The translations under genes and the position numbers were made by a program. This document shows, piece by piece, positions 4,410 to 43,779 of a stretch of 64,000 nucleotides of DNA (positions are counted from its first letter, which is position 1; each line of letters begins with the position of its first letter). The stretch spans positions 3,213,732 through 3,277,731 of the forward strand of contig NC_016894.1 in assembly GCF_000247605.1 (NCBI RefSeq), in the 5' to 3' direction. Under the pieces are notes generated by a model. It did no database searches and was not told the origin of the DNA. It saw nothing but the letters and a program-made list of their open reading frames with translations. This DNA is from Acetobacterium woodii DSM 1030 (GTDB lineage: Bacteria; Bacillota; Clostridia; Eubacteriales; Eubacteriaceae).

Positions 4410-4438
4410 AAAATTCACCTCCAATTTTTCGTTTCTAT

Positions 4439-6284: not shown

Positions 6285-6293
6285 CCGATGGCC

Positions 6294-7802: not shown

Positions 7803-7830
7803 GACGCACACTCCTTTTTTAATTTTTTTA

Positions 7831-8001: not shown

Positions 8002-8044
8002 TAATTTTTTTATCTTTTAATCACTTTTACATTGTTTAACCGTG

Positions 8045-10175: not shown

Positions 10176-10188
10176 TTTATAATCTCCA

Positions 10189-11097: not shown

Positions 11098-11309
11098 TTT
11101 TGCCTCCTACTTAAAAACAGGGGTTTTCTTAAAACAACTACCATAGTTCGATCATGCAAAAATCCGTTATTTTCAATAATTTATTTAGCCTGCCGCCTCG
11201 AAACAACTTATTCAAAGGCCATTTCGTGACTTATTAAACAAGACTACAACACCGGAATTTTTTATTTGGGCAAACTTCGTAATGATCTCAAGAATTTTTC
11301 TTGATTAAA

Positions 11310-11350
11310 AGTATAGCACTTATATTTACACATGACAAGTCTACTGTAAA
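11310..11350 (-). promoter_or_regulatory. nadA promoter with putative NiaR operator
   Basis: On the minus strand TTGTCA (11338-11333) and TATACT (11315-11310) are separated by 17 bases, a good sigma-A promoter. A dyad, TTTACA and TGTAAA with 14 bases between (11325-11350), covers the -35 box. With niaR downstream of nadABC, this dyad is the best candidate NiaR site. The 5' leader to nadA is then about 200 bases (11098-11303), and no known riboswitch class was recognised in it. Confidence 0.6.
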
Positions 11351-11420
11351 GTTTTATGGTCAAGGTCTTCGTTTTATTTATTGTAATGTCATCAGTCTTA
11401 CTGCCAAACGTAAGGCTTGG

Positions 11421-24770: not shown

Positions 24771-25181
24771 TTATTCTGCGACTAAAGTGGTTCCCATAAC
24801 CGCATCAGTTTCAATTTCCACTAACTGCGTCGGACGATTCAACATCGGCGTTCCGACCATGGTAAAAAGTGGTTTTATGAATTTGAAAATTTCGGTATAA
24901 GCCTTTGCAATCGCTTGTCCATATTTCATATCAGTGGTATAAACTTTGATCCGGATCACATCTTCTTTTTGAGCGCCCGCCCGTTTAAGCAAATCGACAT
25001 GTTTTTCCAGAACATATTTTGTTTGGGCATAAGGATCATTTTCACCATACACACTCCCATCCGGCTGCACCGAAGTTGTTCCGCCAATATAGATAAATGG
25101 TCCGACTTTAACCATTCGGGAATAACCTGCTTTTTCTTCCAACGGCGCTCCCGAAGCATAGTTTATTCGTTCTAATTCCAT
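24771..25181 (-). CDS. RidA family protein (enamine/imine deaminase)
   Basis: A 136-residue member of the RidA/YjgF family, which hydrolyses reactive enamines and imines to ketones and ammonia. Visible features are the GPFIYIGGT strand, PYAQTKYVLE helix and the C-terminal PTQLVEIETDAV.G segment. The family arginine is replaced in sequence context (LNRPTQLVEIE), so this is a non-archetypal Rid subgroup. It begins 11 bases after the amino-acid oxidase gene. A role in disposing of the imine made by that oxidase is likely. Confidence 0.87.
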   Translation of the reverse strand: MELERINYASGAPLEEKAGYSRMVKVGPFIYIGGTTSVQPDGSVYGENDPYAQTKYVLEKHVDLLKRAGAQKEDVIRIKVYTTDMKYGQAIAKAYTEIFKFIKPLFTMVGTPMLNRPTQLVEIETDAVMGTTLVAE

Positions 25182-25191
25182 CTGCTACTCC

Positions 25192-26319
25192 TTAAATTTT
25201 TGCTTTAAAACGATCATATCGAAAAGCGCTCATGTCAAGCGTTGTCGTTTTGTCGGTAGCCATTTCCGCTAACATCAACCCCACCGTTGGCGAGATGCCA
25301 AAACCATGACCTGAAAAAGCGGCTCCAATAATCAGTCCGGGGACTTCTTCAACAGGACTGATGACCGGTACCAGATCGGCACAAACATCCATCCACCCGG
25401 CCCAGGTTCTGACAATCTTGACATCTTCAAGAATTGGAAAATATTTCATAATTCCACGACAGATACAAGGTGCGGTAATACTCGAGTTAGACGGTGTCCC
25501 ATTGTCCTTGTTGACCCCTTCAAATCCCGATGAACCACCAAAAACAAATGAACCATGGGTGCTTTGGTGACCATAAAAATCGGCCGCGGCGGTGCCCAGC
25601 ATCTGATAAAACATCGGTGGCTGGGCTTCCGTTACCAGTGTTTCCAGCAACGCCTGAGTCATCGGAATATCAATCCCCAATTGCGATGCCAACACCCGGC
25701 TGTTATATCCGGCCGTCAGAATAATCGTTTCTCCTTCGTAACAATTGTTTTCAGTAATCACTTGTCGGGCTTTGCCTCGAATTTTTTTAATTTCCACCAC
25801 CGCTTCACCGGTAATAAAACGAACCCCTAATTGTCGGGCTTTCCGGTAATAAGCCAAGGTTGTCAGCATCGGATTGGCGTGACCGTCAGTTGGACACCAA
25901 CTGGCCCCATTAACTTCTTCCGAAAGATACGGGCAAATGTCCCGGGCTTCATTGCCCGATATCATTTTTACATCCAACCCGCCCGCGACAGCACTATTCG
26001 TCAGACCCGTTAAAACCTTTAAATGAGCGTCGGTTTTACCTAGTCGTAAATTTCCTTCCTGATAATATTCAACATCCATACCCAGTTCTTCCGACAGCGT
26101 CGGCCAGATATTTTTAATGCCATACATCGCCAACGGCAATTCGCGTTTATCCCGACCCGATTGTCTGACCCCGCCACCATTTCTGGATGAACCGCCGTTT
26201 CCAATACTATCACTTTTTTCCAGGACAATAACCGAACAGCCTTTTTTAGCAAGATAATAGGCGGTCGCATTGCCAATCACCCCACTACCAATAATAATTA
26301 CGTCAGCATTATTTTTCAT
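25192..26319 (-). CDS. FAD-dependent oxidoreductase, DAO family (opine/D-amino-acid oxidase beta-like)
   Basis: A 375-residue flavoprotein with N-terminal dinucleotide fold ADVIIIGSGVIGNATAYYLA and the DAO-family C-terminal block GLIIGAAFSGHGFGISPTVG. It resembles the catalytic subunit of sarcosine, proline or opine oxidases (SoxB, HcnC, OoxB). I chose ATG 26319, seven bases after GAGGA, and the frame could start at 26343. The BFD, pyridine-nucleotide-type and 2Fe-2S genes just upstream give the rest of a heteromeric dehydrogenase. The amino or imino acid substrate cannot be named from sequence. Confidence 0.87.
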   Translation of the reverse strand: MKNNADVIIIGSGVIGNATAYYLAKKGCSVIVLEKSDSIGNGGSSRNGGGVRQSGRDKRELPLAMYGIKNIWPTLSEELGMDVEYYQEGNLRLGKTDAHLKVLTGLTNSAVAGGLDVKMISGNEARDICPYLSEEVNGASWCPTDGHANPMLTTLAYYRKARQLGVRFITGEAVVEIKKIRGKARQVITENNCYEGETIILTAGYNSRVLASQLGIDIPMTQALLETLVTEAQPPMFYQMLGTAAADFYGHQSTHGSFVFGGSSGFEGVNKDNGTPSNSSITAPCICRGIMKYFPILEDVKIVRTWAGWMDVCADLVPVISPVEEVPGLIIGAAFSGHGFGISPTVGLMLAEMATDKTTTLDMSAFRYDRFKAKI

Positions 26320-26329
26320 GTTATTTTCC

Positions 26330-26650
26330 TCATCCTTTTTCATTCCCCAGAATCTTCATTTCAAGCGGTCTCATCGGGGCCCGGGACATCGCCGGTTCCA
26401 GTTCCAGCGGTGATATCTTCAGTTCCTTCGCCACAATTCCTTTGATCAAACGTCCGCATGTCTGGCCCTGACAGAGACCCATGCCGGTTCTTAAATAACG
26501 TCTGATTTCCGTTAATGTAAACATCCCTTCATGAACAGCTTTTCTTATTTCACCTTTTGTAATTTCTTCACAGCGACAGATAATCTGGTTGTCATCCTTC
26601 ATGGGAAGGTACTCGCCGATATCCCGCGATCGATCATTTAGTTTAGTCAT
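26330..26650 (-). CDS. (2Fe-2S)-binding BFD-like small subunit
   Basis: A 106-residue protein with the BFD-like cluster pattern: CRC at about residues 25-27 and GLCQGQTCG at about 58-66, together four cysteines for a 2Fe-2S cluster. In opine and hydroxyproline dehydrogenases this domain is either separate, as here, or the end of the alpha subunit. ATG 26650 follows GGAGGAG. It lies between the two flavoprotein genes and is probably an electron-transfer subunit of their complex. Confidence 0.85.
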   Translation of the reverse strand: MTKLNDRSRDIGEYLPMKDDNQIICRCEEITKGEIRKAVHEGMFTLTEIRRYLRTGMGLCQGQTCGRLIKGIVAKELKISPLELEPAMSRAPMRPLEMKILGNEKG

Positions 26651-26661
26651 TGTTTCTCCTC

Positions 26662-28239
26662 CTACACTTGTTTGAAAAAACGAGCCTTCATGCTCATTTC
26701 CAGAGGAACCTTCATTGTCAGCAAACTGGTGTGATCAAAAGCTGTCACATTTTTTAACTCGATCACTTCTGCTTCGCATATCTGTTTCCCGCTGCGATCC
26801 AAAGCAATCCCCTTCAGGCCTTTTTCCGGCAATGGATAAAATTCATAAGGAATCGTCACTGCTGCTGTTCCATCTGCCTGATCTTCATTAACCAGAAAGA
26901 TCGATTGACCCGAACAAGCGGCCACGCATAGACCGCAACCAGTGCAGCTTTTATCTTCGGCTACTACCGGCAGTGCGGTAATCTTATCCCCGATGGTGAT
27001 ACATTTTTTAGGACAAGCATCCTGACAGGGATTACAAGGAATGTTTTGAGAGCACTCAATCACCGGATGAACCCCGGTCTTTTGGGTCACCCCCGGATAA
27101 GTTAACACTTCTTCGTTGGTTAAATAACCTTTGGTCAACAAATTAGTTGAAACCCGATAACCTTCTTCCGTTTCATTGACTTCTTTACCTTTATTTTCAG
27201 GACTAAACATCCCCGCGCGCAAACTCATTAAAGCCTGCTCCAGCGCTTGCGATTTCTCGACCAGTTCGGGTTGCTCAATATAACCAAGATGATGAGCTGC
27301 CGCTACTCCGGCTATTCGCCCTTCAATCATCGCCGAGCTGGCTTCTTCAATCCCGGACACGTCTCCGGCCACAAAAACACCCGGAATCGATGTCTCGCCG
27401 TAATGATCGCAAATTGGCACATACCCGCCTTTAGCAGGATTCTCAGCCATTTCGCAACCGGCCATTTTTAGCAGTTGCGACATCGGTGACAACCCTACCG
27501 CCAAACAGATTGTATCAACCTCAAAATCTTTTTCTGAACCGGGAACAATATTCCAATTGCCATCAACCTGACCAATAGTTACTCCGGTGACACAATCGCT
27601 GCCATGAGCCTTGATGATGGTATGGGATAAATAAAAAGGGACCCCGCAGCGGGCAACCTTAGCCGCATGAACGCCATAACCGCCAATTCTAGGCGCGGCA
27701 TCAACTAATGCCACCACGTCACACCCTGCTTGCATAAGCTGATAACTTACTACCAAACCAACATTCCCAGTCCCCAGCATCAAAACTTTTTTCCCCGGTT
27801 TGATGCTATGCAGATTCATCAAAGTCTGGGCAGCACCGGCGCCAATAACCCCCGGTAAGGTCCACCCTTCAAAGGTGATCATGTTTTCCGAAGCACCGGT
27901 GGCGACAATAATCACATCCCCTTTATAATGAACCACCGCATCGTTATTTTGTACCAAAACCTCTTTGTCCAGATACAAACCCACCACGGCGGCATTAAGC
28001 ACAACTTCGACCCCGGCCGCTTCGGCTTCATTTAGCAACTCTTCACCTATTTTAAAACCCCGGATTTTGGCTTTATGTTCTTTTGATCCGAAAAATTTAT
28101 GGATCTGCTTAAATAATTGTCCTCCGGGTTTGGCATTTTCGTCAAAAACAATAACTTTGAGTCCTCTTTTAGCCGCTTCAATTGCGGCTGATAGTCCGGC
28201 CGGACCGGCACCGACTACTATTACATCATATCTTTTCAT
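26662..28239 (-). CDS. NAD(P)/FAD-dependent oxidoreductase with two ferredoxin motifs (opine/proline dehydrogenase alpha-like)
   Basis: A 525-residue protein with two nucleotide folds: VVGAGPAGLSAAIEAAKRG near the N-terminus and MLGTGNVGLVVSYQLMQAGC near residue 170. Near the C-terminus are cysteine clusters, CNPCQDACPKKC and CTGCGLCVAAC, typical of 4Fe-4S ferredoxins. It resembles the alpha subunit of opine, cyanide-forming and proline dehydrogenases (OoxA, HcnB, PDH1), extended by the ferredoxin part. The extension would let electrons leave to an anaerobic carrier. ATG 28239 is favoured over the longer frame at 28269. Confidence 0.87.
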   Translation of the reverse strand: MKRYDVIVVGAGPAGLSAAIEAAKRGLKVIVFDENAKPGGQLFKQIHKFFGSKEHKAKIRGFKIGEELLNEAEAAGVEVVLNAAVVGLYLDKEVLVQNNDAVVHYKGDVIIVATGASENMITFEGWTLPGVIGAGAAQTLMNLHSIKPGKKVLMLGTGNVGLVVSYQLMQAGCDVVALVDAAPRIGGYGVHAAKVARCGVPFYLSHTIIKAHGSDCVTGVTIGQVDGNWNIVPGSEKDFEVDTICLAVGLSPMSQLLKMAGCEMAENPAKGGYVPICDHYGETSIPGVFVAGDVSGIEEASSAMIEGRIAGVAAAHHLGYIEQPELVEKSQALEQALMSLRAGMFSPENKGKEVNETEEGYRVSTNLLTKGYLTNEEVLTYPGVTQKTGVHPVIECSQNIPCNPCQDACPKKCITIGDKITALPVVAEDKSCTGCGLCVAACSGQSIFLVNEDQADGTAAVTIPYEFYPLPEKGLKGIALDRSGKQICEAEVIELKNVTAFDHTSLLTMKVPLEMSMKARFFKQV

Positions 28240-28280
28240 ACTCTTACCAATCCTTTTTAATGTCCTCAAAACACGTCTTT

Positions 28281-28589
28281 TTACTGTTTTGCTGATACTC
28301 CATATTGGGTTTGAACTTTCATCCCCGCAACCAATGGTGTGACGCAGGTTCGCACATTCGCCTTGCCATCAACCACCATCACACAATCGGTGCATCTTCC
28401 AATCGCACAAAATATCCCGCGCGGCGCATCAGTTTTTTGCGTATGCCGATGAACCATCACCCCAGCCGCTCTTAACGCCACCGCAATCGGTTCAGATTCA
28501 TAACCTTCCATTGGTTTTCCATCAAAGTAGAACGTAACCAATTGACCTTTATGACTTTCACCCAAAATCGGGTGTTCTTTAATTCGCAT
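28281..28589 (-). CDS. (2Fe-2S)-binding protein, HcnA/SoxA N-terminus-like
   Basis: A 102-residue protein of the Fer2_4 type. It has FYFDGKPMEGYESEPIAVALRAAG, then the cluster cysteines in CAIGRCTDC and a final RTC. Such small proteins are the gamma subunit of sarcosine, proline and opine dehydrogenases. Two ATG codons (28592 and 28589) follow GGAGGA, and the second is better spaced. It completes a four-subunit iron-sulfur flavoenzyme with the next three genes. Confidence 0.85.
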   Translation of the reverse strand: MRIKEHPILGESHKGQLVTFYFDGKPMEGYESEPIAVALRAAGVMVHRHTQKTDAPRGIFCAIGRCTDCVMVVDGKANVRTCVTPLVAGMKVQTQYGVSAKQ

Positions 28590-28618
28590 CATTTTCCTCC
28601 TCTAAACTATAACGCTCT

Positions 28619-28662
28619 GCGGCAATTGCCATAACTATTCCTCGTTCGCAATTGCCGCAACC
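28619..28662. repeat. Hairpin with GCGGCAATTGC arms
   Basis: GCGGCAATTGC and GCAATTGCCGC, 11 bp perfect, with an 18-base loop, between the cyclodeaminase and 2Fe-2S genes. There is no T-run, so it is not a standard terminator. The GGCAATTGC block is reminiscent of family A ends. Confidence 0.5.
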
Positions 28663-28665
28663 AAC

Positions 28666-29799
28666 TTACGCCAGATAAGGTGTATCCCATAAGTTGAGTT
28701 TAGTTCCAATGCCTTTTTCCAGCGCATTGCGGTACAACTTGGTTCCCCAGGCTATATCTTCTACCGGCATTCCGCCCACCGTGTATAAAATAATTTCATC
28801 GTCCGATTTTCGAGCTGGTGTTCGGCCTGCGATAATATCACCCAGATCATCGATATCTTCACGTTTCATGATTCCTTTTTCAATCAAATCCATGTAATGT
28901 ACAGCCAATAATCCGACAATTTCATAACGCGGTGCTGGTAGCTCTTCACTCCATGCTTCATATAATTTGATGTTATCAACAACATGACGCGCCCGATTTA
29001 ACAAAAAATCATCGTCAAATCGAATATTGGCCGGCATACAGAACAACGCCCCGGGTTTAATCCATTCTTCTTTAATATGGGGGTAAGACTCCACACCTAC
29101 TGATCCCGAAGTTGCCACACTGACAATATCCGCACCGCTAACCGCCGCTTCCATACTATCCACAATTTCAATGTTGGTAATCTGCGGGAATTCAGTTTTT
29201 ACATAGTCGGCAAATGCTTCGGATGTCACTTTTCGACGTCCACAGATTTTGATCGTATCAATATTCGGGCAGGTCACCATAAATGAAGCTAAAGCCGTTT
29301 TGTTCATTACCCCAGGACCGATAATCCCGACAACCCGCGAATCTTTTTTAGCTAAATATTTAGCGCCCACTCCTGGGATAGCGCCGGTCCGAATCGCACT
29401 TAAAACATTAGCTGACATTAACGCCATTGGTGCACCGGTTTCTTTTTCATTTAACATCACCGTAAGAATCGAACGCGGCAGGCCTTTTTCTTTATTGGCG
29501 GCATTCGACCCATACCACTTCATGCCGGCCATATCGAATTCGCCGCCCAGATATGCGGGCATCGCCATATAACGCCGATCCGGTCCGTTCAAAGGCATAT
29601 TGGGAAATGGCGATGTTTCCGGAAATGACAACATAATACCATGAGAATTCTGATTTGCTCCGCCCATAATATAATCGCCGTCACTCATTAATTTAAACAT
29701 TTCAATCATGGTATCAACACATTCTGCCATGTTTAAAACACCTGCTTCAATCATATCCGGTTCACTTAAATATAAAAAATCAATCTTTGCGTCTTTCAT
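28666..29799 (-). CDS. Ornithine cyclodeaminase/mu-crystallin family protein (TyoB-like)
   Basis: A 377-residue member of the OCD/mu-crystallin family with MKWYGSNAANKEKGLPR, the NAD-binding VVGIIGPGVMNKTAL and TSGSVGVES. Characterised relatives include ornithine cyclodeaminase, imine reductases and proteins annotated as tyramine oxidase subunit B. It opens the operon, with ATG 29799 after AAGGAG, and a family A element lies 26 bases upstream. Cyclodeaminases accompany opine oxidases in opine catabolism, which fits the rest of this operon. The true substrate is unknown. Confidence 0.8.
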   Translation of the reverse strand: MKDAKIDFLYLSEPDMIEAGVLNMAECVDTMIEMFKLMSDGDYIMGGANQNSHGIMLSFPETSPFPNMPLNGPDRRYMAMPAYLGGEFDMAGMKWYGSNAANKEKGLPRSILTVMLNEKETGAPMALMSANVLSAIRTGAIPGVGAKYLAKKDSRVVGIIGPGVMNKTALASFMVTCPNIDTIKICGRRKVTSEAFADYVKTEFPQITNIEIVDSMEAAVSGADIVSVATSGSVGVESYPHIKEEWIKPGALFCMPANIRFDDDFLLNRARHVVDNIKLYEAWSEELPAPRYEIVGLLAVHYMDLIEKGIMKREDIDDLGDIIAGRTPARKSDDEIILYTVGGMPVEDIAWGTKLYRNALEKGIGTKLNLWDTPYLA

Positions 29800-29825
29800 T
29801 ATTCTTCTCCTTATTTCTTGATTAA

Positions 29826-30003
29826 TAGGTAATTGCGAAAATGCTGTGAGCTGTGGGCTGTGGGCCCAGTTTCGCACGAAACAATTTCTACACGGTACGG
29901 CGGACAGTTCGATGAACTGTTCGCCTACACGTTACGAAATTGTTTGTGAAAACTGCACCCAAAGCAACCGTTGTTTGATATTTTTTAATTTCGCAATTAT
30001 CTA
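29826..30003 (-). mobile_element. Family A palindromic element, copy 4
   Basis: 178 bases, longer than the others because GCTGTGGGCTGTGGGCCC replaces GCTTTGGGCCC in one arm. The flanking direct repeat is TCTTGATTAA (29816-29825) against TCTTGATTTA (30004-30013). It lies 26 bases upstream of the cyclodeaminase start codon. A separate hairpin with CGCGAAATAC arms stands just beyond it (30013-30039). Confidence 0.85.
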
Positions 30004-30932: not shown

Positions 30933-31850
30933 TTAAATACTAATCGGGATGTCGTCAAAATACTTTTTCCATATTTTGAGTAAATCACTAATCATTCGAA
31001 TCCCCACCGAAGAAATTAAGACGATTTCTGTTTTTTCAATAGGTTCATTCCATGGATTCAGCACCACAAAATCATTGACACTGCTCACTTCAAAAACCCC
31101 CTGATTGGTTTGTACAAACCCTTTAATACGATAGGTTGATCGTTTTATTTCATTTAGAAAATTTTTGAATGTTTGATAATCAAATACTTCTTTCGTTTTG
31201 ATGACCTTCGTATTCGGCCGAGTTTCCCAAGTGTTTCCTGATACCATAGCCATTCGTTTGACAACAGTCAACTTTGATATCATTGCTCTTAGCGGAATTT
31301 CGCAAAAAGATGCCCGCACAATTCCTGCCTCGGGATTAATTTCTTTAATCTTCGCTTCAATGACTTCCAGTTCTTTGGGAATCTGAAGATCTGCTTTATT
31401 GATAATCACTTCATTAGCATAAAATATCTGCTTTTTCAGGGCCGAAATCACTTCAAACTGTTTAAGAAAATAAAGTCCATCTACGATACAGATCGAACCG
31501 GCGTAATCGTAGTTTTTGCCTGAAATTTTTAAAACCATTTCAAGAATGGTTTCCATATTTGACGGATCTGCCACTCCCGATGACTCCACAAAAACAATTT
31601 CCAGATTGTGATTCAAAAACTCAGCCAGACCTGTAATGAAATGCTCTTTTAAACAGGCGCAAAAAATAGATCCGTTGGTGAGTTCGATCAAATCAAAATC
31701 GTTACCTAATATCAATCGACCATCAATACTTGTTTCTCCGAATTCATTCATCATCACCCCAATTTTCTTCGTTTTATATGCGTTTAAGAGCTTTTTTAGC
31801 AAGGTTGTTTTTCCTGCTCCCAAAAATCCGGTCAGTAAAATAAGCTTCAT
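30933..31850 (-). CDS. CobW/G3E family GTPase
   Basis: A 305-residue GTPase of the CobW/UreG/HypB group. It has Walker A GFLGAGKTT (residues 8-16), switch motif VESSGVADP and NKAD for guanine recognition. The metal-binding stretch reads FCACL in place of the usual CxCC. Such proteins insert metals or help load cofactors. It closes the corrinoid methyltransferase locus, so a role in cobalt or corrinoid handling is likely but inferred. A hairpin terminator separates it from the UroD-type gene. Confidence 0.85.
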   Translation of the reverse strand: MKLILLTGFLGAGKTTLLKKLLNAYKTKKIGVMMNEFGETSIDGRLILGNDFDLIELTNGSIFCACLKEHFITGLAEFLNHNLEIVFVESSGVADPSNMETILEMVLKISGKNYDYAGSICIVDGLYFLKQFEVISALKKQIFYANEVIINKADLQIPKELEVIEAKIKEINPEAGIVRASFCEIPLRAMISKLTVVKRMAMVSGNTWETRPNTKVIKTKEVFDYQTFKNFLNEIKRSTYRIKGFVQTNQGVFEVSSVNDFVVLNPWNEPIEKTEIVLISSVGIRMISDLLKIWKKYFDDIPISI

Positions 31851-31910: not shown

Positions 31911-33260
31911 TTATAAATATTTGCTGACCACATCAATCAATTCCTGTTTACTCGGTATAATTGAAGACCACTTGAGTTCACCATTGATATACGTAGATGG
32001 TAAATGTTGGACCCCCATTTTTTTCGTCCGGGCAATATCTACTTTATTGGTGTATTTATACTCTTTAATCTCAACCTTTTCTCCATATTCTTCATCTGCC
32101 TGCATGATGCCCTTAACCATATAGGTACAAGCGGCACAAGTAGCGGCATCTAGCGTAAAAATTTCTATCAGCGGTTTTTCTAAATTTTCATAATCCGGCA
32201 AATCCACTGGTATCTTTTCGTCGATCGCCTCATAATTTTCAATCATTTTACGAACAGTTTCAGTTTGTTTAATCGCCTGGACAGTGGCAACCGTATTATC
32301 AATGGGAACATTATAGGGCATATCGCATCCCGGACTAACAATTAAATTATGATGGTCAATATTATCCAGCATCTCCACAATAAATTTCATATTGTCCTGC
32401 TGATTGCCAAAAAGCAGAGTGGTTGTCAGGGGTATATTTCCCCCAATGGCAATATTGTACTGATCGGTGATTTTTTTTGCTTCATAAATATTGACATTCT
32501 CATCGATGGATATCCCATCAGGATGGGTTCGGCACATTACATCCATTTGTATTGTTGCATCTCCACAGACAAAGAAACAACTTAACGCACCTTTACTCTT
32601 AATAAAATCAAAGGCCGCTTGGAAGGATTCCATGAATAAACCCTCAATTGATTTTGGAGAAATTTGACTGATCAGTGGATCGACCAAAGCGATGATATCC
32701 ATACCAGCTTCGATATAGTAAGATGACATCGCATTACACACCTCCACGCAGAATCCTATCAGTTCCTTAACATACTCCGGATACATGATAATATCCATAA
32801 AGAATTGGCTCCCACGAAGATGAGATGCCAAAGTTACCGGTCCACAAATCAAACCGTATAAGGCGGTATCCTCTCCAACTACCGCTTTAATCCGTTTCAT
32901 TACATCCAAAACCATTGGAATACGTCCATCAGTTATCTTTGGAATCTTACATTTACAAGGAACAGTCAATTCGCCCGCATAGGGATGACTCATCACTGAA
33001 GGTGGATTATCCTCTGCCCATAACAGCTCACATCCTAAAATTTCCGCTTCAATTTGAAGATCGAAAATTACCGGCATGCCATCAGGCGTATAAAGTTTAT
33101 GAACTTCTATCAGTGAATCAAATAACTTGTCTCCGTCAGTTAACACATCTCTTGCCGAATATCCTTTTAAAAAACCAGCGTGGACACCGCTAAATGGTAC
33201 CCATGGCACCTCGTCTACGTTTCCATGTCTTAATGTCTTTAAAATTAAATCTTTTCCCAT
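31911..33260 (-). CDS. UroD-family methyltransferase fused to a thioredoxin-like domain
   Basis: A 449-residue fusion. Residues 1-345 are a uroporphyrinogen-decarboxylase-like barrel of the MtaA/MtbA/CmuA branch, which moves methyl groups from a corrinoid protein to a thiol or pterin. The usual His-x-Cys zinc motif reads FVCGD here, so the histidine is replaced by phenylalanine, while VSPGCDMP keeps the second cysteine. From about 365 a thioredoxin/glutaredoxin-like domain follows, with CAAC (375-378) and a cis-proline site in HLPSTY. ATG 33260 is supported by MGKDLILKTL. It is the likely second methyltransferase, with an unknown acceptor. Confidence 0.85.
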   Translation of the reverse strand: MGKDLILKTLRHGNVDEVPWVPFSGVHAGFLKGYSARDVLTDGDKLFDSLIEVHKLYTPDGMPVIFDLQIEAEILGCELLWAEDNPPSVMSHPYAGELTVPCKCKIPKITDGRIPMVLDVMKRIKAVVGEDTALYGLICGPVTLASHLRGSQFFMDIIMYPEYVKELIGFCVEVCNAMSSYYIEAGMDIIALVDPLISQISPKSIEGLFMESFQAAFDFIKSKGALSCFFVCGDATIQMDVMCRTHPDGISIDENVNIYEAKKITDQYNIAIGGNIPLTTTLLFGNQQDNMKFIVEMLDNIDHHNLIVSPGCDMPYNVPIDNTVATVQAIKQTETVRKMIENYEAIDEKIPVDLPDYENLEKPLIEIFTLDAATCAACTYMVKGIMQADEEYGEKVEIKEYKYTNKVDIARTKKMGVQHLPSTYINGELKWSSIIPSKQELIDVVSKYL

Positions 33261-33399
33261 TTTTTTCCCTCTTATATTATAATTTTTTTCTAAACTATTT
33301 GTCATTGCCTTTGATTGAAGCGATCTCGATTAAAATTATTAAGACGCTTATTTAAAATACTGCAAATGTTTCCCTAAATGATGTTAAAAGACAAACCGG

Positions 33400-34278
33400 C
33401 TACTCTAAAATAATGTCAATATCCGATGTCCGACTGACAAGAATCACCGAAACCAGCATAAGTAACGCTCCAAAAACTGTGTTTCCATTCCATGGTTCAC
33501 CATACAGAACAATTCCCAATACAAGGGTTACTACTGCCTCAAATGCGATAATTAATGAGGTTTGTGTTGATCCAATTTTTTTTATGGCATAAGTCACCAT
33601 CTTTAATACAAAAATTGTAATCAATCCCAGTGCTACTGTAAAAAATACGCCTTTAACAGGTAGTCTCAAAAATTCCGGATTGCCTGATACTAAACACCCT
33701 TGGAGACCAAATATGACAGCACTGATCCCTCCCAGATAAAAAATAATCACTGGATCTTTTAGTTTTTGCAACACGCTTTTTTGAAGACTGACCAAATAGA
33801 TACCATATGCCAATCCCGATCCCATCGCCAAAATGCTTCCAAAATTCACTAGCTGAAAATCAAAGTTGATAAGAAATATAATTCCCAATATGGCAATTCC
33901 CAAAGCAATGATTTTCGTCCGATTAGGTTTTTCTTTAAAAACCACACGCATGATCAGAACAACAAAAAAAGGATAGGAAAAGTAAAGCATGGTTGCCAAC
34001 CCCATAGGCATAAAATTAAATGCCTGAGCTAATAAAAAAGTCGCACCACCATAACCAAATACAGAAAAAATACACAGTCCAAATACTTGTCTTATTGATA
34101 ATTTGATATTCTCCTTTTTAACAATAAATGTTATTCCCAGAACAACGAATACAACCACATACCGATAAAATAAAATTGTGGTAGCACTTAGACCATCCAG
34201 CATTAACGCCTTCGTTAACACTGGAATAAGACCTGCTGCCAAAGCAGCTGCAATAGCAGCAAAGATTCCAATTGACAT
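33400..34278 (-). CDS. EamA/DMT family transporter
   Basis: A 292-residue protein with ten predicted membrane helices in two EamA repeats, including the end-of-repeat motifs FLLAQAFNFMPMGLATMLYFSYPFFVVLIM and TYAIKKIGSTQTSLIIAFEAVVTLVLG in longer form. ATG 34278 follows AAGAGGAG. It lies in the methyltransferase locus, after the corrinoid protein gene and a terminator-like hairpin. It could export the demethylated product or import a precursor. The substrate is unknown. Confidence 0.85.
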   Translation of the reverse strand: MSIGIFAAIAAALAAGLIPVLTKALMLDGLSATTILFYRYVVVFVVLGITFIVKKENIKLSIRQVFGLCIFSVFGYGGATFLLAQAFNFMPMGLATMLYFSYPFFVVLIMRVVFKEKPNRTKIIALGIAILGIIFLINFDFQLVNFGSILAMGSGLAYGIYLVSLQKSVLQKLKDPVIIFYLGGISAVIFGLQGCLVSGNPEFLRLPVKGVFFTVALGLITIFVLKMVTYAIKKIGSTQTSLIIAFEAVVTLVLGIVLYGEPWNGNTVFGALLMLVSVILVSRTSDIDIILE

Positions 34279-34296
34279 TATTCTCCTCTTATTTTG

Positions 34297-34323
34297 AAAA
34301 AAGCACTCCATATTCGGAGTGCT
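34297..34323 (-). terminator. Terminator after the corrinoid protein gene
   Basis: AGCACTCC and GGAGTGCT pair across a six-base loop, followed on the minus strand by TTTTTTC. It lies between the corrinoid protein stop and the DMT transporter start and probably lowers transporter expression. Confidence 0.8.
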
Positions 34324-34365
34324 GATACTGTCATTATCTTTAATGTCGATATCTATCATAAAGCT

Positions 34366-34992
34366 TTAGCTTGCTGCTAACTCTTTTGCGGTATCCACAG
34401 CTCCGGAAGCATCCGCTGCATAGACTGCACCTATTTTTTTGCTATAGACCGGGGATAATGGGGCCCCACCAACAAGATATTGAACATTCAACCCTTCGTT
34501 TTCACAAGCATTGATGATTTCCTGCATGTAGGTCATGGTAGTGGTAAGCATCGCTGACATCCCCACAATATCGGCGTTATTTTCTTTTACTGCTGCTATA
34601 AATTGTTCCACCTTTGTATCGACACCAAGATCCACAACTTTAAAACCTGCGCTTTCGAGCATCATCACAACCAGATTTTTACCGATGTCATGCAGATCCC
34701 CTTTAACGGTTCCAATAACAATGGTTCCCAGAGTCGGCATGTCTTTATCAGCTATCAACGGTTTAACAATGTCCATTCCCGCATTCATCGCCCGAGCTGC
34801 CATCAATACTTCCGGCACAAACATTTCGCCATTTTTGAATTTTTCACCAACAACGTTCATTCCACTTAGCAAACCATCGTTGATGATTACAATAGGGTCT
34901 GCCTGTGCTGCAATTAAAAGATTAACATTTTCAATAATCCCTAATTCGTTTCCATCGATTATGAATTGTCCTAAATCCACTATATTTAACAT
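34366..34992 (-). CDS. Corrinoid (B12-binding) methyl carrier protein, MttC-like
   Basis: A 208-residue corrinoid protein with an N-terminal helical cap (about 1-85) and a B12-binding domain. Its DxHxxG motif is at 99-104 (DLHDIG), and MSAMLTTTM and VGGAPLS complete the cobalamin site. It carries the methyl group from an MttB-type enzyme to the second methyltransferase. It begins 22 bases after the panB stop, in one operon with the octopine-dehydrogenase-family gene. The corrinoid reactivating enzyme (RamA type) is not in this window. Confidence 0.93.
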   Translation of the reverse strand: MLNIVDLGQFIIDGNELGIIENVNLLIAAQADPIVIINDGLLSGMNVVGEKFKNGEMFVPEVLMAARAMNAGMDIVKPLIADKDMPTLGTIVIGTVKGDLHDIGKNLVVMMLESAGFKVVDLGVDTKVEQFIAAVKENNADIVGMSAMLTTTMTYMQEIINACENEGLNVQYLVGGAPLSPVYSKKIGAVYAADASGAVDTAKELAAS

Positions 34993-35014: not shown

Positions 35015-35869
35015 CTATTTAATTTCAGCTAAAATTTTTTCGAGTTCATCAGCTTCTTCATCTGCAATTACATAGGTATGAACGCCATCATCCGGAAATG
35101 TCCCATTTCGTACTTCATCACAAAATGCAGTAAATCCTTTTAATAGTTCTGCCCCGACGTTAGCATATCTTTTAACGAATTTTGGTGTAAAGTCATCATA
35201 ATAGCCCACCATATCTGCATAAATAAGGAGCTGTCCATCAGTATAGGAACCAGCGCCGATTCCTAAAACTGGAATACTCAATCTTTCTGTTATGGCTTTA
35301 CCAACAACTGCCGGAACACCTTCAACCAAAATAAATGATGCTCCCGCCGCTTCAATCGCAAGCGCTTGTCTTAGCAACTCCATCGCTGCTGTGGCACTTT
35401 TACCTTGAGCTTTGTATCCCCCCATTTGCGCTGCAAATTGTGGCGTTAAACCAATATGACCCATAACCAGAATACCAACATCGGAAATGGCTTTAATCCG
35501 TTCACAAACCGATTCGGTTCCACCTTCCAACTTAATGGCATCGACTAACGATTCTTTGGTAAAACGACCGGCATTAAAAACTGCCTCCTGATTGGAAATC
35601 TGATAGGACATATAAGGCATATCTCCTACAATGAACGTATTGGGAGCGCCTCTGTGCACTGCCGATGAATGGGCAATCATATCATCCATAGTTACCGGAA
35701 AGGTTGTTTCATAACCTAATGTTACCATTCCCAACGAATCCCCAACCAGAATCATGTCAACGCCTGCGCGTTCTTCATATTTAGCTGTTAAATAATCATA
35801 ACCGGTGATATATACAATTTTCTCTTTCTTTTCAACCATTTCTCTAAAATTAATAATACTTTTTTTCAT
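35015..35869 (-). CDS. panB: 3-methyl-2-oxobutanoate hydroxymethyltransferase (PanB)
   Basis: A 284-residue barrel enzyme with VGDSLGMVTLGYETTFPVTMDDM, GDMPYMSY, the metal and substrate residues in KLEGG and GHIGLTPQ, and VLGIGAG. PanB joins a hydroxymethyl group from 5,10-methylene-tetrahydrofolate to 2-oxoisovalerate. The reaction is reversible. There is no panC or panD nearby. It is embedded in a sigma-54-controlled methyltransferase operon, so a catabolic role that releases methylene-tetrahydrofolate is possible. The ATG 35869 has an AAGGAG site. Confidence 0.88.
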   Translation of the reverse strand: MKKSIINFREMVEKKEKIVYITGYDYLTAKYEERAGVDMILVGDSLGMVTLGYETTFPVTMDDMIAHSSAVHRGAPNTFIVGDMPYMSYQISNQEAVFNAGRFTKESLVDAIKLEGGTESVCERIKAISDVGILVMGHIGLTPQFAAQMGGYKAQGKSATAAMELLRQALAIEAAGASFILVEGVPAVVGKAITERLSIPVLGIGAGSYTDGQLLIYADMVGYYDDFTPKFVKRYANVGAELLKGFTAFCDEVRNGTFPDDGVHTYVIADEEADELEKILAEIK

Positions 35870-35936
35870 TATACTCTCCTTATTATTCTTCCTTATTTTC
35901 ATCTTCAGGTTAGCCTTCTCCAAAGACCATCCATCA

Positions 35937-35959
35937 TCACACGCTTTATAAGCGTGTGA
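35937..35959. repeat. Hairpin between the octopine-dehydrogenase-family gene and panB
   Basis: TCACACGCTT and AAGCGTGTGA form a perfect 10-bp stem with a three-base loop. There is no T-run, so it may be a processing or stability hairpin within the operon mRNA rather than a terminator. Confidence 0.6.
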
Positions 35960-35991
35960 GAGATTGAGGGTCTTGATCTTAGGATGGTTAA

Positions 35992-37209
35992 TTATTTGAT
36001 TTTTCCGGTTCGCAAATAGTCGTTTAATTCTTCTTTATTCATATTATCGATTCCAATGTATTCCAATGTATAACCGTTAGCAGTTAAATCTCTGCCCAGG
36101 ATTGCACAGGCCAAACTGATCATGGCGTCTACAACCGGTGTGTTAACACCATAAACATCACCTAATTGTTGATATACATAACAACCTACTGGGATATCTT
36201 CGGTGATGTATCGATTTTCCATGGTAAATGGACCGGTGCCATATTGAATAGGGTCCTGCTTATCAAAAGGAATCAGGTAATCTAAACCCATGTATTCCTG
36301 CCCTAATACATTTTCTCGCGAAAAAAAATGTTCCTTTTGATAAGGTTGAATGCCAACGCCAATTGTATCTGCTAGGGCACATTCTTCCTGATAGAAGGTG
36401 TATTGTACTTGAGAAATAGAAGGGCAATAAGCGTGGGAGTAAATAGAAAATTTAAATTTATCTTCGCCAAAAATGGTACCAAAGTTTTCCATGGTTGAAA
36501 CACCAAGAATCGCGCCAGGACAGTGAAGAACAGGATTAACATTAGAAAACCCGGTATCTAAAACGGTATCCCCGGCAACAGCGCCTTCACCTTGAGTAAC
36601 TGCATCCATAGAGGGTAAATATTTTGAGCTTTCAATAAATGCTTTGGTATCCGTCGCTGGCATTGCCGCACCACGAAGCGTAATCGCCCGATAGTACACT
36701 CTGATTTTATGGGTAATTACACCACCCGGCATATCAACACGACTACCGTAGGTTGAGCTTGACCATCCACCAACGATAACATTTTTTGTACATCCTGCTT
36801 CTCGCATCATCTTACGAAGAATCAACGTACCAAAATTATCCGGAAAAATATGAATAACCTGACCATCTTCCAAACATGGAATCAATTTTTCAAAAAATGG
36901 TTTGTGTCCAAAGGTCGGTGTTGCAATAACAATAATCCCAGCCCCTTTCACCGCTTCAGCTACATCGGTTGTAACCCTATCCATTTTTGCAAAACCTTCC
37001 CGTTCAAAACCGTAAAGATTGACCTGGTCCCCATAAAATTTAATACCAACTTTTTCGATATTTTTTAATGTTTTTTCTGCAAACGGTTCAAAATCGCAAA
37101 TTCGAACCTTGGCGCCTCCTAAAGCACAATCTCCGGCAATTGCCTTTCCAACTGCGCCAGCCCCTAACACTGCTATCGGCTTGTCTTTTAAATAACTCAT
37201 GTCTGTCAT
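35992..37209 (-). CDS. NAD/NADP octopine/nopaline dehydrogenase family protein
   Basis: A 405-residue protein with an N-terminal dinucleotide fold (IAVLGAGAVGKAIAGDCALGG, residues 12-32 in shorter reading) and the octopine-dehydrogenase helical domain, including FSNVNPVLHCPG. This fold is shared by opine dehydrogenases and ketopantoate-reductase-like enzymes. It is the first gene after the sigma-54 promoter at about 37284 and precedes panB. It may therefore reduce or oxidise the 2-oxo acid handled by PanB, or an N-substituted amino acid. ATG 37209 follows AAAGGAG. Confidence 0.82.
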   Translation of the reverse strand: MTDMSYLKDKPIAVLGAGAVGKAIAGDCALGGAKVRICDFEPFAEKTLKNIEKVGIKFYGDQVNLYGFEREGFAKMDRVTTDVAEAVKGAGIIVIATPTFGHKPFFEKLIPCLEDGQVIHIFPDNFGTLILRKMMREAGCTKNVIVGGWSSSTYGSRVDMPGGVITHKIRVYYRAITLRGAAMPATDTKAFIESSKYLPSMDAVTQGEGAVAGDTVLDTGFSNVNPVLHCPGAILGVSTMENFGTIFGEDKFKFSIYSHAYCPSISQVQYTFYQEECALADTIGVGIQPYQKEHFFSRENVLGQEYMGLDYLIPFDKQDPIQYGTGPFTMENRYITEDIPVGCYVYQQLGDVYGVNTPVVDAMISLACAILGRDLTANGYTLEYIGIDNMNKEELNDYLRTGKIK

Positions 37210-37587: not shown

Positions 37588-39219
37588 TTATTTTTTATCC
37601 AAGTTAAACCATTTTTTATGAATTTGGGGATCCGCCGCTTCTTCCGATTCTTCAGCTACAATATCTAATGCTTCGGTTCCCAGGAATTCTGCATATTCTA
37701 TTTCATCCCGTTTGTGTTTTCCTGAAAAAAGATGATACAAGAACCCCAGAATCATCGCTAATTCAATAAAGAGAATAGGGAATCCGGCAATTGTTTTGAC
37801 AATTTTTATCCCGTCAATACCACCGCTGATAACAAATACCAGAGAAATTAAGCCAATAAAAATTCCCCAGAATACTTTAATCGGTAATGGTGCTTCTTTT
37901 ACGCCTTTGGATTGTTTCAAAGACATGGTTGCAATGGTTGAAGTCATGGAATCTGCCAGCGTAACAAACGATAATCCAACCGTTATCAACATGATAATTC
38001 GGATCAAATCTGTAAATGGCAGGAATTGGAAAATATACATCATAAACGCCTGCGCCCCATTGTCTGTTAAAAATCCTGCCATATCAGCTACCCCACGTAG
38101 TTGAAGATCTAATGCAAATCCGCCAAAAATACTGAACCATAAAATTCCGAACATCGCTGGTAGAATAACATTAACGGTAATAAATTCTCTGATGGTTCGA
38201 CCATAGGATAGTTTTACCAGGAACAAACCAACAATTGGGCCAAATGACAACCAGTCAACCATCCAGTACATATCCCACCATTGAGGCCATAAATCGCTAC
38301 CAATTAGAGGTTGGGTAAAGAGGCTTAAATCGATAAAATTATTAACAAAATAGCCAAATGATTGGGTAAATAAATTAAAGATATATGCTGTTGGACCACA
38401 GATCAATACAAAAATCATCAATGCGATAAAAATCCAGGCATTTTTGTCACTTAACCAGGCAATCCCTTTATCCAAACCGGTAGCACTGGAAATAGTATAG
38501 GAGGTAATGATAACCATCGCAATGGCCGCCCATACAAATGGTCCCGGTTCAATTCCAAATACAAAGTTAAGCCCACTTCCGATTTGAAGCAATCCATAAC
38601 CCAAGGAACCGGCAACACCTCCACAAATGGCAAATAGGATAATCCCATCAACGATTGTGTTGATTTTGGAATTAAGTTCCTTACCATTGTTTAAAAAAAC
38701 CAGACCTGAACTGGCAGTGTAGCTTTTGTTCATATTATAATAAGCATAACCGATCGTAATCCCTGCCACTGCATATATGGAATAAGGCGAAAATGACCAA
38801 TGCAGGAATGATTTACTCATTCCCCAAATAATTGAATCCAGACTCCCGGGATCCAAACCAACCGATGGTGGTGGGGTAAATGTATGCATCAGTGGTTCGG
38901 TAGCCCCCCAGAACACAATCCCAGTTCCGATTCCGGCGCAAAGGGATATTGCCCACCAAATCCAGGTTTTATACTTTGGCATAGCATTTTGTCCGCCAAA
39001 TTTAATACTCCCGAAAGGATGTACAAACAACAAAACCATACAACAAACAAAAATTAAAACACCCAGAGAAACCATCCATCCGGCGTTTTCCATTAAACTA
39101 ATAAAGAAATTAGTCATAATGGTTGTAAATTGTGCGGGTGCAATGAATCCAATAATGAGGATAATCCCCATTAATACAATTGGAATCGCAACTGGAACAA
39201 TACGTATTCTTTTTAACAT
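37588..39219 (-). CDS. BCCT family betaine/carnitine/choline transporter
   Basis: A 543-residue protein with about twelve membrane segments and a charged C-terminal tail. The BCCT signature is visible in SLCAGIGTGIVFWGATEP and in the helix-8/9 segment with VDWLSFGP and LSYGRTIREF. Members take up quaternary amines such as glycine betaine, carnitine or proline betaine. It stands at the head of the methyltransferase locus behind its own sigma-54 promoter, so it probably imports the substrate that the divergent MttB proteins demethylate. A family A element lies 30 bases before its start. Confidence 0.92.
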   Translation of the reverse strand: MLKRIRIVPVAIPIVLMGIILIIGFIAPAQFTTIMTNFFISLMENAGWMVSLGVLIFVCCMVLLFVHPFGSIKFGGQNAMPKYKTWIWWAISLCAGIGTGIVFWGATEPLMHTFTPPPSVGLDPGSLDSIIWGMSKSFLHWSFSPYSIYAVAGITIGYAYYNMNKSYTASSGLVFLNNGKELNSKINTIVDGIILFAICGGVAGSLGYGLLQIGSGLNFVFGIEPGPFVWAAIAMVIITSYTISSATGLDKGIAWLSDKNAWIFIALMIFVLICGPTAYIFNLFTQSFGYFVNNFIDLSLFTQPLIGSDLWPQWWDMYWMVDWLSFGPIVGLFLVKLSYGRTIREFITVNVILPAMFGILWFSIFGGFALDLQLRGVADMAGFLTDNGAQAFMMYIFQFLPFTDLIRIIMLITVGLSFVTLADSMTSTIATMSLKQSKGVKEAPLPIKVFWGIFIGLISLVFVISGGIDGIKIVKTIAGFPILFIELAMILGFLYHLFSGKHKRDEIEYAEFLGTEALDIVAEESEEAADPQIHKKWFNLDKK

Positions 39220-40841: not shown

Positions 40842-40901
40842 ATTTTTGTGATAGACTTTTATTACCAATATTCAATATACTTAAAAAAGGGGATTAAAAC
40901 A

Positions 40902-42332
40902 ATGAAACCATATGAAAATTATGTATCAAAACAAGATATTCAAATAATCCATGAAGAATCACTCAAAATTCTTAACGAGATCGGAGTTAAATTCGAACAC
41001 CCAGAAATACTGGAAATTTTCAAAACCCACGGTGCACGCATTGATGGGAATACTGTCTTCATGGATGAAAAAATGGTAATGAATGCCATTTCAACCATTC
41101 CTGAAACATTTACGATCGAAAACTCTAAGGGTAATCATACGCTTGGGGGAGGAAGCCTGATTTTAATGCCGGGAGTTGGAAATATTTTCCGGTTGGATAA
41201 TGGTCATCTCCATAAAATGACCAATAATGACACCGTGGATCAGTTTAAATTATCGGATACCAGCGATGTCATTGACTGTAACTATTTCAATATCTTTCTT
41301 GATGATAAAGGTTTGTCAATCGATGAACGAGTATTCAGTCCGATCGCCATGATCTTGAAATATTCCAATAAAACAGCCTTGCATTTACAGGCCAACACTT
41401 TTCCTTTGAAATCCGGTATGAGCGAAAGCTTTAAAAAAGGTTTGGAACTCATTGAAAAATTTGAAGGACGCAGTGGAGTTTATAATAATATTGTTCATAT
41501 GAATTCCTTGTCACCCTTGTGTTTTGATCATGATCCGCTGGAAAAATTCCTAATCGCCGCTGAAATGAATCAGCCTGTCTGGTTTAGCCCCTGTTCCATG
41601 CCTGTTCTCACCGGTCCGCCTTCTGTAGCGGGACTCATTGCCATGACAAATGCTGAAGTTGTGTCAGGTATGGTTTTGTCCCAACTGGTCAAACCCGGAC
41701 TTCCCGTTGTGTATGGACAGACCTCTGCCTCTACCAACCTTAGAACGGTACAGCTGAGCATCGGCGCACCTGAAACGGCTTTGATATCCTACGCAACCCG
41801 GGGACTGGCAGATTTTTACAAGCTCCCATGTCGCACCGGCGGCGGTTTAAGTGACGCCAAAGACTTTGATATGCAAGCGGGTATTGAATCGGATATGATG
41901 ATTCGTTCAACCCTTGAGGCGGCACCGGATTTAGTTCTCCATGCCTGTGGCATATTGGGAAGCTTTAACATCCTGAGTTTTGAAAAATTTCTGATGGATG
42001 AAGACACCTATCGCATGAATCGACGTCTCTTAAAAGGCATTAATACTGAAGAAACCCACCTGTGTCATGATCTGATTGCAAAAATCGGTCCCCGGGGTAA
42101 CTTTTTGCAGGGGCGAACCCCTAAAATGTTCAAAGAAGAATTCTTTATTCCCAAATATTTCAACAAAGAAGACCCCAACCAATGGCAGGAAAATGGCAAC
42201 GAGCCAGTTCTACGCAGCGTTCAGTCTGCCGTTAAAGAACGTTTAGCTTCCTACACTCCACCGAATATTACCAAAGAACAATCCAATTTACTGAATAAAT
42301 ACATCCCTGCCTGCTACCGGGAACGAATTTAA
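40902..42332 (+). CDS. MttB family (non-pyrrolysine) methyltransferase, first paralogue
   Basis: A 476-residue member of the trimethylamine methyltransferase MttB superfamily. There is no in-frame amber codon, and the region where pyrrolysine occurs in true MttB reads RTGGGLSDAKDFDMQAG. Non-pyrrolysine relatives (MtgB, MtpB, MtcB) demethylate glycine betaine, proline betaine or carnitine to a corrinoid protein. ATG 40902 follows AAAAGGGG. The frame extends 18 codons upstream without support. The substrate is unknown. The MttC-like partner is at 34366-34992. Confidence 0.93.
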   Translation: MKPYENYVSKQDIQIIHEESLKILNEIGVKFEHPEILEIFKTHGARIDGNTVFMDEKMVMNAISTIPETFTIENSKGNHTLGGGSLILMPGVGNIFRLDNGHLHKMTNNDTVDQFKLSDTSDVIDCNYFNIFLDDKGLSIDERVFSPIAMILKYSNKTALHLQANTFPLKSGMSESFKKGLELIEKFEGRSGVYNNIVHMNSLSPLCFDHDPLEKFLIAAEMNQPVWFSPCSMPVLTGPPSVAGLIAMTNAEVVSGMVLSQLVKPGLPVVYGQTSASTNLRTVQLSIGAPETALISYATRGLADFYKLPCRTGGGLSDAKDFDMQAGIESDMMIRSTLEAAPDLVLHACGILGSFNILSFEKFLMDEDTYRMNRRLLKGINTEETHLCHDLIAKIGPRGNFLQGRTPKMFKEEFFIPKYFNKEDPNQWQENGNEPVLRSVQSAVKERLASYTPPNITKEQSNLLNKYIPACYRERI

Positions 42333-42363: not shown

Positions 42364-43779
42364 ATGGAAACCATACAAAGAAATATAGAATTTAACGTTT
42401 TAAATAAGAATAAAATCGAGACAATTCATGAAAAAAGCATCGATCTGCTGGAAAACTTCGGCATGCGCGTTGTTGGCAAACGAACCATTGATTTGTTAAA
42501 AAAATATGGTTGCACCGTTGACGGTGAACTGGTTAAATTTCCAAAATCGGTTGTTGATAAAGCTCTGAACACCATTCCAAAAGAACTGACCCTTTATACC
42601 CGGGATGGCAAACCAAACATGGTGATTAACAGCAAAAACAATGTCTATTTCGGAACTCATTCTGATCAGCTGGAAATTCTTGATCACAAAACCAATATGG
42701 CCCGACCATACCTGAAATCAGACATCAAAAATATGTGTACCCTGGGTAGCTACTTATCCAACATCAGTTTTATTTTATCCGTTGGTATGTGCGCTGATGT
42801 GAATCCACTGGTCCAATCTCAGGTTACCTTTATTGAAACTCTTAAAAACTTCGACAAAACTATTAATTTTTCCACCAATGACATTGAATCCCTTCAGGAA
42901 ATCATTGACATCGCTGCCGTTGTAGCCGGCGGACATAAAGAATTAGCTGAAAAACCTTTTATTTTCAACTATTGCGAACCCATCCCACCGCTTACTCACC
43001 CGGTGGAAAGCACTGAAAAACTATTCATCAGTGCAACCAATAAAATTCCAGTAGTATACATGCCTTATAGCATGATGGGCGGCACCTCCCCGATTACCAT
43101 CGCCGGTGCCTTGACCCAGAATAATGCTGAAATTTTAGCCGGTGTGGTTATTACCCAGGCGGTCAACGAAGGTGCTCCCTTGATCTACGGATCCATGCCA
43201 ACTGTATTTGACATGCAAACCACCGTCGGTTCGTATGGTGCTCCTGAATTCCATAAATCCGTTGCTGCCGCTTCTGAGTTGGCAAACTATTATCATCTGC
43301 CTTTTTATGGAACGGCCGGCTGCAGCGATGCTAAAACCATTGATCCTCAATCGGTTGCTGAAGTACAAATGGAGCTCTTCTCTTCCATTTTAAGTAAAGC
43401 AAATATTGTCCATGATATCGGTGTATTGGATCATTGTAACTCGGTAGCTCCTGCTATGGTTGTTCTGGCCAATGAAATGATCAATCAGCTTTCGGCCTAC
43501 TCCAGCGGCGTTGAAGTCAATGACGAAACGTTAGCCATAGATGTCATCAAAAGTGTTGGCCACGGTGGTCACTACCTAAACGAAATACACACCCTCAGCA
43601 ATTTTAAAAGTGTCTGGTATCCAGAATTCTTTAAACGCCGAATGGTCAATCCTGATCAATCTGATATTTTAGAAATCGTCAATGCTAAAATTGATACCAT
43701 TCTTGGAACCCATGAAGTCCCGGCGCTGGAGGCTTCAATCCTAGCTGAAATCGAAAAAATCGAAAAAAATTATCAGTGA
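42364..43779 (+). CDS. MttB family (non-pyrrolysine) methyltransferase, second paralogue
   Basis: A 471-residue MttB-superfamily protein beginning 32 bases after its paralogue, with a ribosome site AAGGAG. The segment equivalent to the pyrrolysine site reads FYGTAGCSDAKTIDPQS. The two paralogues differ widely (for example MGGTSPITIAGALTQNNAEILAG here against TGPPSVAGLIAMTNAEVVSG there), so they probably act on different substrates or on successive methyl groups. A terminator follows the gene. Confidence 0.93.
   Translation: METIQRNIEFNVLNKNKIETIHEKSIDLLENFGMRVVGKRTIDLLKKYGCTVDGELVKFPKSVVDKALNTIPKELTLYTRDGKPNMVINSKNNVYFGTHSDQLEILDHKTNMARPYLKSDIKNMCTLGSYLSNISFILSVGMCADVNPLVQSQVTFIETLKNFDKTINFSTNDIESLQEIIDIAAVVAGGHKELAEKPFIFNYCEPIPPLTHPVESTEKLFISATNKIPVVYMPYSMMGGTSPITIAGALTQNNAEILAGVVITQAVNEGAPLIYGSMPTVFDMQTTVGSYGAPEFHKSVAAASELANYYHLPFYGTAGCSDAKTIDPQSVAEVQMELFSSILSKANIVHDIGVLDHCNSVAPAMVVLANEMINQLSAYSSGVEVNDETLAIDVIKSVGHGGHYLNEIHTLSNFKSVWYPEFFKRRMVNPDQSDILEIVNAKIDTILGTHEVPALEASILAEIEKIEKNYQ

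Follow-up and report, generated by a model that had tools for sequence, protein, structure and literature searches.

The UroD-type methyltransferase encoded in the analysed stretch of Acetobacterium woodii DNA is fused to a thioredoxin domain, and in all 80 of the 80 fusion members compared the His-x-Cys...Cys zinc site of MtaA and MtbA is replaced by Phe-Val-Cys...Cys. Corrinoid-protein-dependent methyl transfer is the best supported function. As a tentative reading, with a probability of roughly 0.4, we propose that the fusion protein is an MT2-like corrinoid-to-thiol methyltransferase of the UroD type of MtaA/MtbA, with a built-in dithiol partner. This reading is favoured because of the MtaA-type fold, the retention of two zinc cysteines, the range of methyl-loading enzymes that accompany the gene and the lack of MtrH in many carrier genomes.

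Reading frame and domain composition

The gene is located in a window of 64,000 nucleotides, which is the whole stretch of DNA analysed (Table 1). Its open reading frame extends over positions 31911–33305 of the reverse strand and spans 464 amino acids; the residue numbers given here (His42, Phe245, Cys247, Cys327, Cys390, Cys393, Pro436) follow this frame. Translation most likely starts at Met16 (position 33260), since relatives align from there and the fusion gene of A. wieringae has stop codons directly upstream. The A. wieringae fusion protein is 449 amino acids long, and we do not equate it with a URO-D protein of 461 amino acids known from proteomics of that species (PMC10134865).

The URO-D domain (PF01208) covers residues 18–347 and thereby the whole barrel (166.7 bits, cut-off 23.9, E 9e-49), followed by a Thioredoxin_3 domain (PF13192) at residues 388–460 (29.1 bits, cut-off 24.8, E 1e-6). 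Reading frame and Pfam analysis bear out the architecture given in the original prediction, namely a UroD barrel with Phe-Val-Cys and a thioredoxin domain with CAAC. Against the MtaA/CmuA family model TIGR01463, the protein scores 139.3 bits and does not reach the curated cut-off of 235.4. A paralogous fusion copy with 67% identity was found at 633.5 kb of the same genome, while relatives with 86–90% identity belong mostly to named Acetobacterium species.

Table 1 Features of the fusion gene locus (window coordinates)
Feature	Position	Strand	Remarks
COG0523/CobW-type GTPase, partner gene	30933..31850	(-)	Pfam cobW E 1.2e-36; Cys motif GSIFCAC instead of GCxCC
UroD-thioredoxin fusion methyltransferase	31911..33260	(-)	449 aa when counted from Met16
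EamA-type transporter between corrinoid and fusion genes	33400..34359	(-)	conserved in Acetobacterium loci
Methyltransferase corrinoid protein (MtgC/MtbC-like)	34366..34992	(-)	B12-binding and B12-binding_2
PanB-type ketopantoate hydroxymethyltransferase, same gene run	35015..35923	(-)	TIGR00222 309.7 bits, above cut-off
Octopine/nopaline dehydrogenase-type oxidoreductase, same gene run	35992..37209	(-)	PF02317 E 5e-29
BCCT-type betaine/carnitine/choline transporter	37588..39219	(-)	PF02028 E 3e-121
MttB-family methyltransferase, ORF without in-frame stop, candidate methyl-loading enzyme	40848..42332	(+)	PF06253 E 6e-87
Second MttB-family methyltransferase	42364..43779	(+)	PF06253 E 1e-79

Fold and thioredoxin domain

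An AlphaFold2 model of the fusion protein, computed with 53 family sequences, has a mean pLDDT of 93.1 and a pTM of 0.88 and matches UroD/MtaA structures. The nearest solved structure is MtaA (4ay8; Z 41.6, rmsd 1.8 Å over 326 residues, 25% identity), in agreement with the fold originally predicted. MtaA of entries 4ay7 and 4ay8 is a methylcobalamin:CoM methyltransferase. None of the PDB matches listed contains both domains, the structure alignments covering essentially model residues 1–338.

In the thioredoxin domain, which matches 1nho in a profile comparison (E 7e-8), the motif Cys390-Ala-Ala-Cys393 (model residues 375–378) stands at the start of helix 376–395, the first helix after a strand. 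Pro436 (model Pro421) of the L-P-S motif occupies the cis-Pro position and is invariant in the family. With the CxxC placed as in thioredoxins and the invariant proline, the modelled domain looks redox-competent. Tandem-thioredoxin fusion proteins are encoded at loci L102 and L103, the second thioredoxin domain lacking a CxxC in the sequence. A link to selenium was considered and discarded: the HUIPC thioredoxin selenoprotein and CobW-related selenoprotein families gave only weak matches far below the cut-off, and all 80 members carry Cys.

Distribution and conservation of the family

The family was sampled by a scan of GTDB genomes, yielding 53 loci, and by a search of 391 class members, yielding 39 carrier genomes. 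The resulting alignment set comprises 80 non-redundant full-length proteins from Clostridia and Anaerolineae, so that the family search suggested with the original prediction did recover the same fusion in distinct relatives. All 80 carry the thioredoxin fusion, and residues F245, V246, C247, G248, G326, C327, D328, C390 and C393 are 100% conserved among them. This invariance indicates that neither the Phe substitution nor the fusion is due to chance or sequencing error. The family is widespread in gut and sediment anaerobes and not limited to one genome. It is apparently undescribed: a search of mainly openly accessible literature found no paper naming a UroD-thioredoxin fusion.

Putative metal site of the barrel

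In the family profile alignment, Phe245 aligns with the His of the LHICG motif of Methanosarcina mazei MtaA (4ay7), and Cys247 and Cys327 align with both zinc cysteines. The predicted loss of the zinc histidine was thus confirmed, with Phe in 80/80 members. Ten other UroD-family proteins from the same loci have H-x-C in nine cases (in one of these an alignment gap displaces the motif) and H-x-D in one.

A replacement ligand may be provided by the barrel itself. His42 is present in 79/80 fusion members and in none of the ten UroD relatives (one gapped there), and the position is Glu in MtaA. It is located where barrel strand 1 ends and the next helix begins, in a region that in human UROD lines the active site (R37/R41). 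Being family-specific, nearly invariant and so placed, His42 is a better candidate for the replacement metal ligand than the fused domain, as far as we infer from the sequence. His162 is a second candidate; it is likewise family-specific (80/80, Asp in MtaA).

The idea that the fused domain supplies the third ligand, through one CxxC cysteine in place of the lost His, is accordingly weakened, and we regard it as very unlikely. In its favour, every one of the 80 full-length members carries the fused domain with an intact CxxC. However, the domain retains both of these cysteines together with the cis-Pro position, as redox-active thioredoxins do, and His42 is the closer candidate. Furthermore, a Phe-Val-Cys relative without a thioredoxin domain (L049, positions 8324–9379) adjoins a fused copy and keeps His42 and both barrel cysteines.

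Gene neighbourhood in Acetobacterium

Within the window, genes for a BCCT transporter, an octopine-type dehydrogenase, PanB, the corrinoid protein, an EamA transporter, the fusion protein and the GTPase form a run on the same strand. A divergent operon codes for an Asp/Glu racemase-like protein, two MttB proteins and a regulator resembling PAS/sigma-54 activators in sequence.

The statement that the locus lacks a pterin-type methyltransferase held only in part. No stand-alone MtrH gene is present at the locus, but a MetH with pterin domain is encoded at positions 51583–53964, sister Acetobacterium species keep an MtrH gene inside the same cluster (with a second corrinoid gene in some), and an MtrH with 84% identity is encoded at 1.849 Mb of the A. 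woodii genome (L106), in the closest corrinoid-MtrH pair. The MetH of the window comprises 793 amino acids and appears to lack a C-terminal activation domain.

The genes for the PanB-type hydroxymethyltransferase and the octopine-type dehydrogenase (35015–37209) are conserved beside the corrinoid gene in Acetobacterium, and a PanE-like gene (L106, positions 5464–6378) adjoins the relocated corrinoid-MtrH pair. These neighbours suggest a C1-linked degradation route for some substrate. Elsewhere in the window, a single run (24771–29877) codes for RidA-like, FAD-dependent oxidase-type and small iron-sulfur proteins and contains an ornithine-cyclodeaminase-like gene; judged by sequence, its make-up is reminiscent of imino acid oxidation.

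The COG0523 partner GTPase

A COG0523 GTPase gene was found within 6 kb of the fusion gene in 74/79 family loci and in 56/80 it is the immediate neighbour on that strand. In the class-wide search, 22/39 carriers and 8/352 other genomes gave a strong hit to the partner GTPase (E ≤ 1e-40; p 4e-19, kinship ignored). Its cysteine motif reads GSxFCxC in 61/71 cases (including one variant, GSILCSC) and CFCC in nine, whereas five other COG0523 copies of the A. woodii genome have GC[IV]CC. Four of these five adjoin corrinoid, UroD or MtrH genes. As far as the literature was searchable, the pairing of an altered GTPase motif with an altered enzyme site has no earlier description. The co-divergence of fusion protein and GTPase (distance correlation 0.75, 71 pairs) was disregarded as evidence, because shared ancestry is enough to produce values of this size.

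At L119, L095, L046 and L090, an NMT1/SsuA-like ABC transporter and/or a radical SAM protein is linked to the fusion-GTPase pair. A BioB-like radical SAM neighbour was considered as a maker of a thiol cofactor and rejected: only the three cysteines of CxxxCxxC are conserved and none for a second cluster, leaving sulfur insertion unsupported.

Corrinoid link and pathway context of carrier genomes

The carrier sets include draft genomes, and counts refer to 38 or 39 carriers and 352 non-carriers. The predicted corrinoid linkage is well reflected at the genome level: corrinoid proteins are encoded in 37/38 carriers and a RACo-type activase in 36/39, compared to 132/352 other class members (Fisher p 1.4e-11, kinship ignored). 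A corrinoid gene lies within 6 kb of the fusion gene in only 35/79 loci. MttB was found in 11/38 carrier genomes.

Acetyl-CoA synthase is present in 6/38 carriers and absent in 32/38. A stand-alone MtrH-like frame was not found in 20/38, where the single query used on these partly draft genomes returned MetH-size frames, other long frames or nothing. Based on these absences, the fusion system is mostly not acetogenic and no speciality of acetogens. The suggestion that acetogens circumvent the pterin methyltransferase with this enzyme consequently lost ground, all the more as MtrH is merely relocated in Acetobacterium. Carrier genomes have 2–46 URO-D family matches each, which rules out the fusion as their sole UroD-type enzyme.

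Loading enzymes at other loci

In genome G368, which has 29 MttB matches, the fusion gene closes a complete monomethylamine/pyrrolysine operon (MtmC, MtmB with in-frame TAG, RamA, PylSc, PylB, PylC, PylD, PylSn, fusion) and is followed by the CobW-type GTPase and an ammonium transporter. At L019 it occurs with an MtmB lacking an in-frame stop, and at L086, L092, L097 and L012 with MttB.

RACo-domain corrinoid activases (RamA) fused C-terminally to an MtaA-like UroD domain with H-x-C and the second Cys were observed at L089 (positions 1767–4490, G368) and L112 (positions 8918–11692, G330). These RamA-UroD fusions belong to the Pyl operon of G368 and the MtmB(TAG) cluster of G330, and their canonical His-x-Cys domain could be the MT2 of both clusters. 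Owing to its presence in the same operon, the thioredoxin fusion of G368 cannot simply be claimed as the only second-stage enzyme. A hydantoinase A/MutL-like ATPase, a possible corrinoid reactivase, recurs just 5' of the fusion gene, often after MttB (L086, positions 7500–9503; L092, L011, L012).

Proposed function and alternatives

The domains, their conservation, the fold, the pairing with the GTPase gene and the genome-level association with corrinoid proteins and activases are observations; for the MT2-like reading we infer the metal, the direction of transfer, the acceptor and the roles of the thioredoxin domain and the GTPase. The corrinoid protein would be methylated by various first-stage enzymes (MttB types, MtmB types, UroD-type demethylases), and the fusion protein would take the methyl group from it and transfer it onto a thiol bound to zinc. 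This zinc site would be a rebuilt one, with Cys247 and Cys327 kept, the His gone and His42 probably in its place, the metal probably being inserted by the adjoining COG0523 GTPase. As dithiol partner, the thioredoxin domain with its CxxC and Pro436 would maintain both zinc-site cysteines or the accepting thiol in reduced form, or hand over the acceptor thiol; it may thus shield or restore thiols, supply a thiol, or itself accept the methyl group. Cysteine-containing zinc sites in the UroD-type superfamily favour S or Se substrates (PMC10418091). A broader claim is that many bacteria without CoM and without a pterin-type methyltransferase use the fusion to transfer methyl groups from corrinoid to a thiol carrier, either the thioredoxin domain or a small thiol delivered by it, as a bacterial counterpart of the CoM methyltransferases. 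We judge this generalisation to be rather unlikely. To our knowledge, the bacterial hosts of the fusion lack CoM.

Several observations count against the MT2-like reading, namely the TIGR01463 score, the distance of many fusion genes from a corrinoid gene and the fact that the UroD-type methyltransferase CdmB needs no zinc (PMC13222342). Moreover, since an MtrH gene is present in the cluster of five sister Acetobacterium loci and of L103, the role of second methyltransferase need not fall to the fusion. The main rival, somewhat doubtful in our view, is a first-stage (MT1) demethylase that transfers the methyl group of a specific S-, Se- or N-methyl compound to the corrinoid protein, from where MtrH or MetH would pass it to tetrahydrofolate or homocysteine, with the thioredoxin domain reducing or binding the thiol product. 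In line with this, the sister Acetobacterium run consists of transporter, corrinoid protein (two in some), fusion and MtrH with no other methyltransferase on that strand, a run in G237 (RamA, corrinoid protein, fusion, DUF1638) likewise has no other methyltransferase, and 12/24 long corrinoid-bearing loci lack MttB, MtmB and MtrH within 6 kb. However, the fusion is accompanied by several classes of loading enzyme (MttB, MtmB, Pyl-MtmB), which makes it unlikely that one substrate of its own serves all loci, and the divergent operon of the window contributes two MttB genes. An accessory or maturation factor that handles metal or repairs thiols of corrinoid proteins or other UroD enzymes, together with the GTPase and the thioredoxin domain and without methyl turnover in the pathway, is unlikely. 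Its constant partner would indeed be a metal-chaperone-type GTPase rather than a methyl-transfer enzyme, and the many URO-D proteins of carriers would be potential clients, but a pure chaperone would not need invariant barrel residues including the MtaA-like cysteines.

Comparison with known systems

With its altered zinc site, obligate redox domain and dedicated metal-chaperone-type GTPase, this family from common gut Clostridia would reveal the fate of methyl groups derived from methylamines, betaines and methoxy compounds in bacteria devoid of both CoM and the acetogenic pathway. The rewiring of a methyltransferase zinc site could be studied in it as a test system, and it is a candidate client protein of a COG0523 GTPase.

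Compared to MtaA/MtbA, the soluble methylcobamide:CoM methyltransferases, the fusion has the fold, the two zinc cysteines and the corrinoid context in common, but differs in the Phe at the zinc His position, the added thioredoxin domain, the bacterial hosts and scores under the curated cut-offs. It may act like an MtaA/MtbA enzyme but is not classed as one, given the absent zinc His and the unmatched curated score. The type 1 mlp systems resemble the fusion system in hosts and gene content; they comprise bacterial SCMT relatives accompanied by a corrinoid protein and Ram/RACE and often lack a tetrahydrofolate methyltransferase (PMC10418091). Their Mlps have His-Cys-Cys sites with few exceptions, no thioredoxin fusion being described (Kountz and Balskus, PMC10418091). 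A type 1 mlp gene cluster (MGC) requires at least one Mlp2 and one Mlp3 with His-Cys-Cys sites in one cluster (PMC10418091), whereas the window locus has one UroD gene, with Phe-Cys-Cys. The UroD-type O-demethylases and the chloromethane methyltransferase CdmB (PMC13222342) share the UroD fold, a corrinoid partner and the occurrence in Acetobacterium, but have an MT1 function and no reported thioredoxin domain, CdmB requiring no zinc. GTPases of COG0523 subfamily 13 are likewise of the metal-chaperone type and are encoded beside corrinoid methyltransferases (Haas et al. 2009, PMC2770081), the partner GTPases of the fusion being set apart by the GSxFCxC motif of 61/71.
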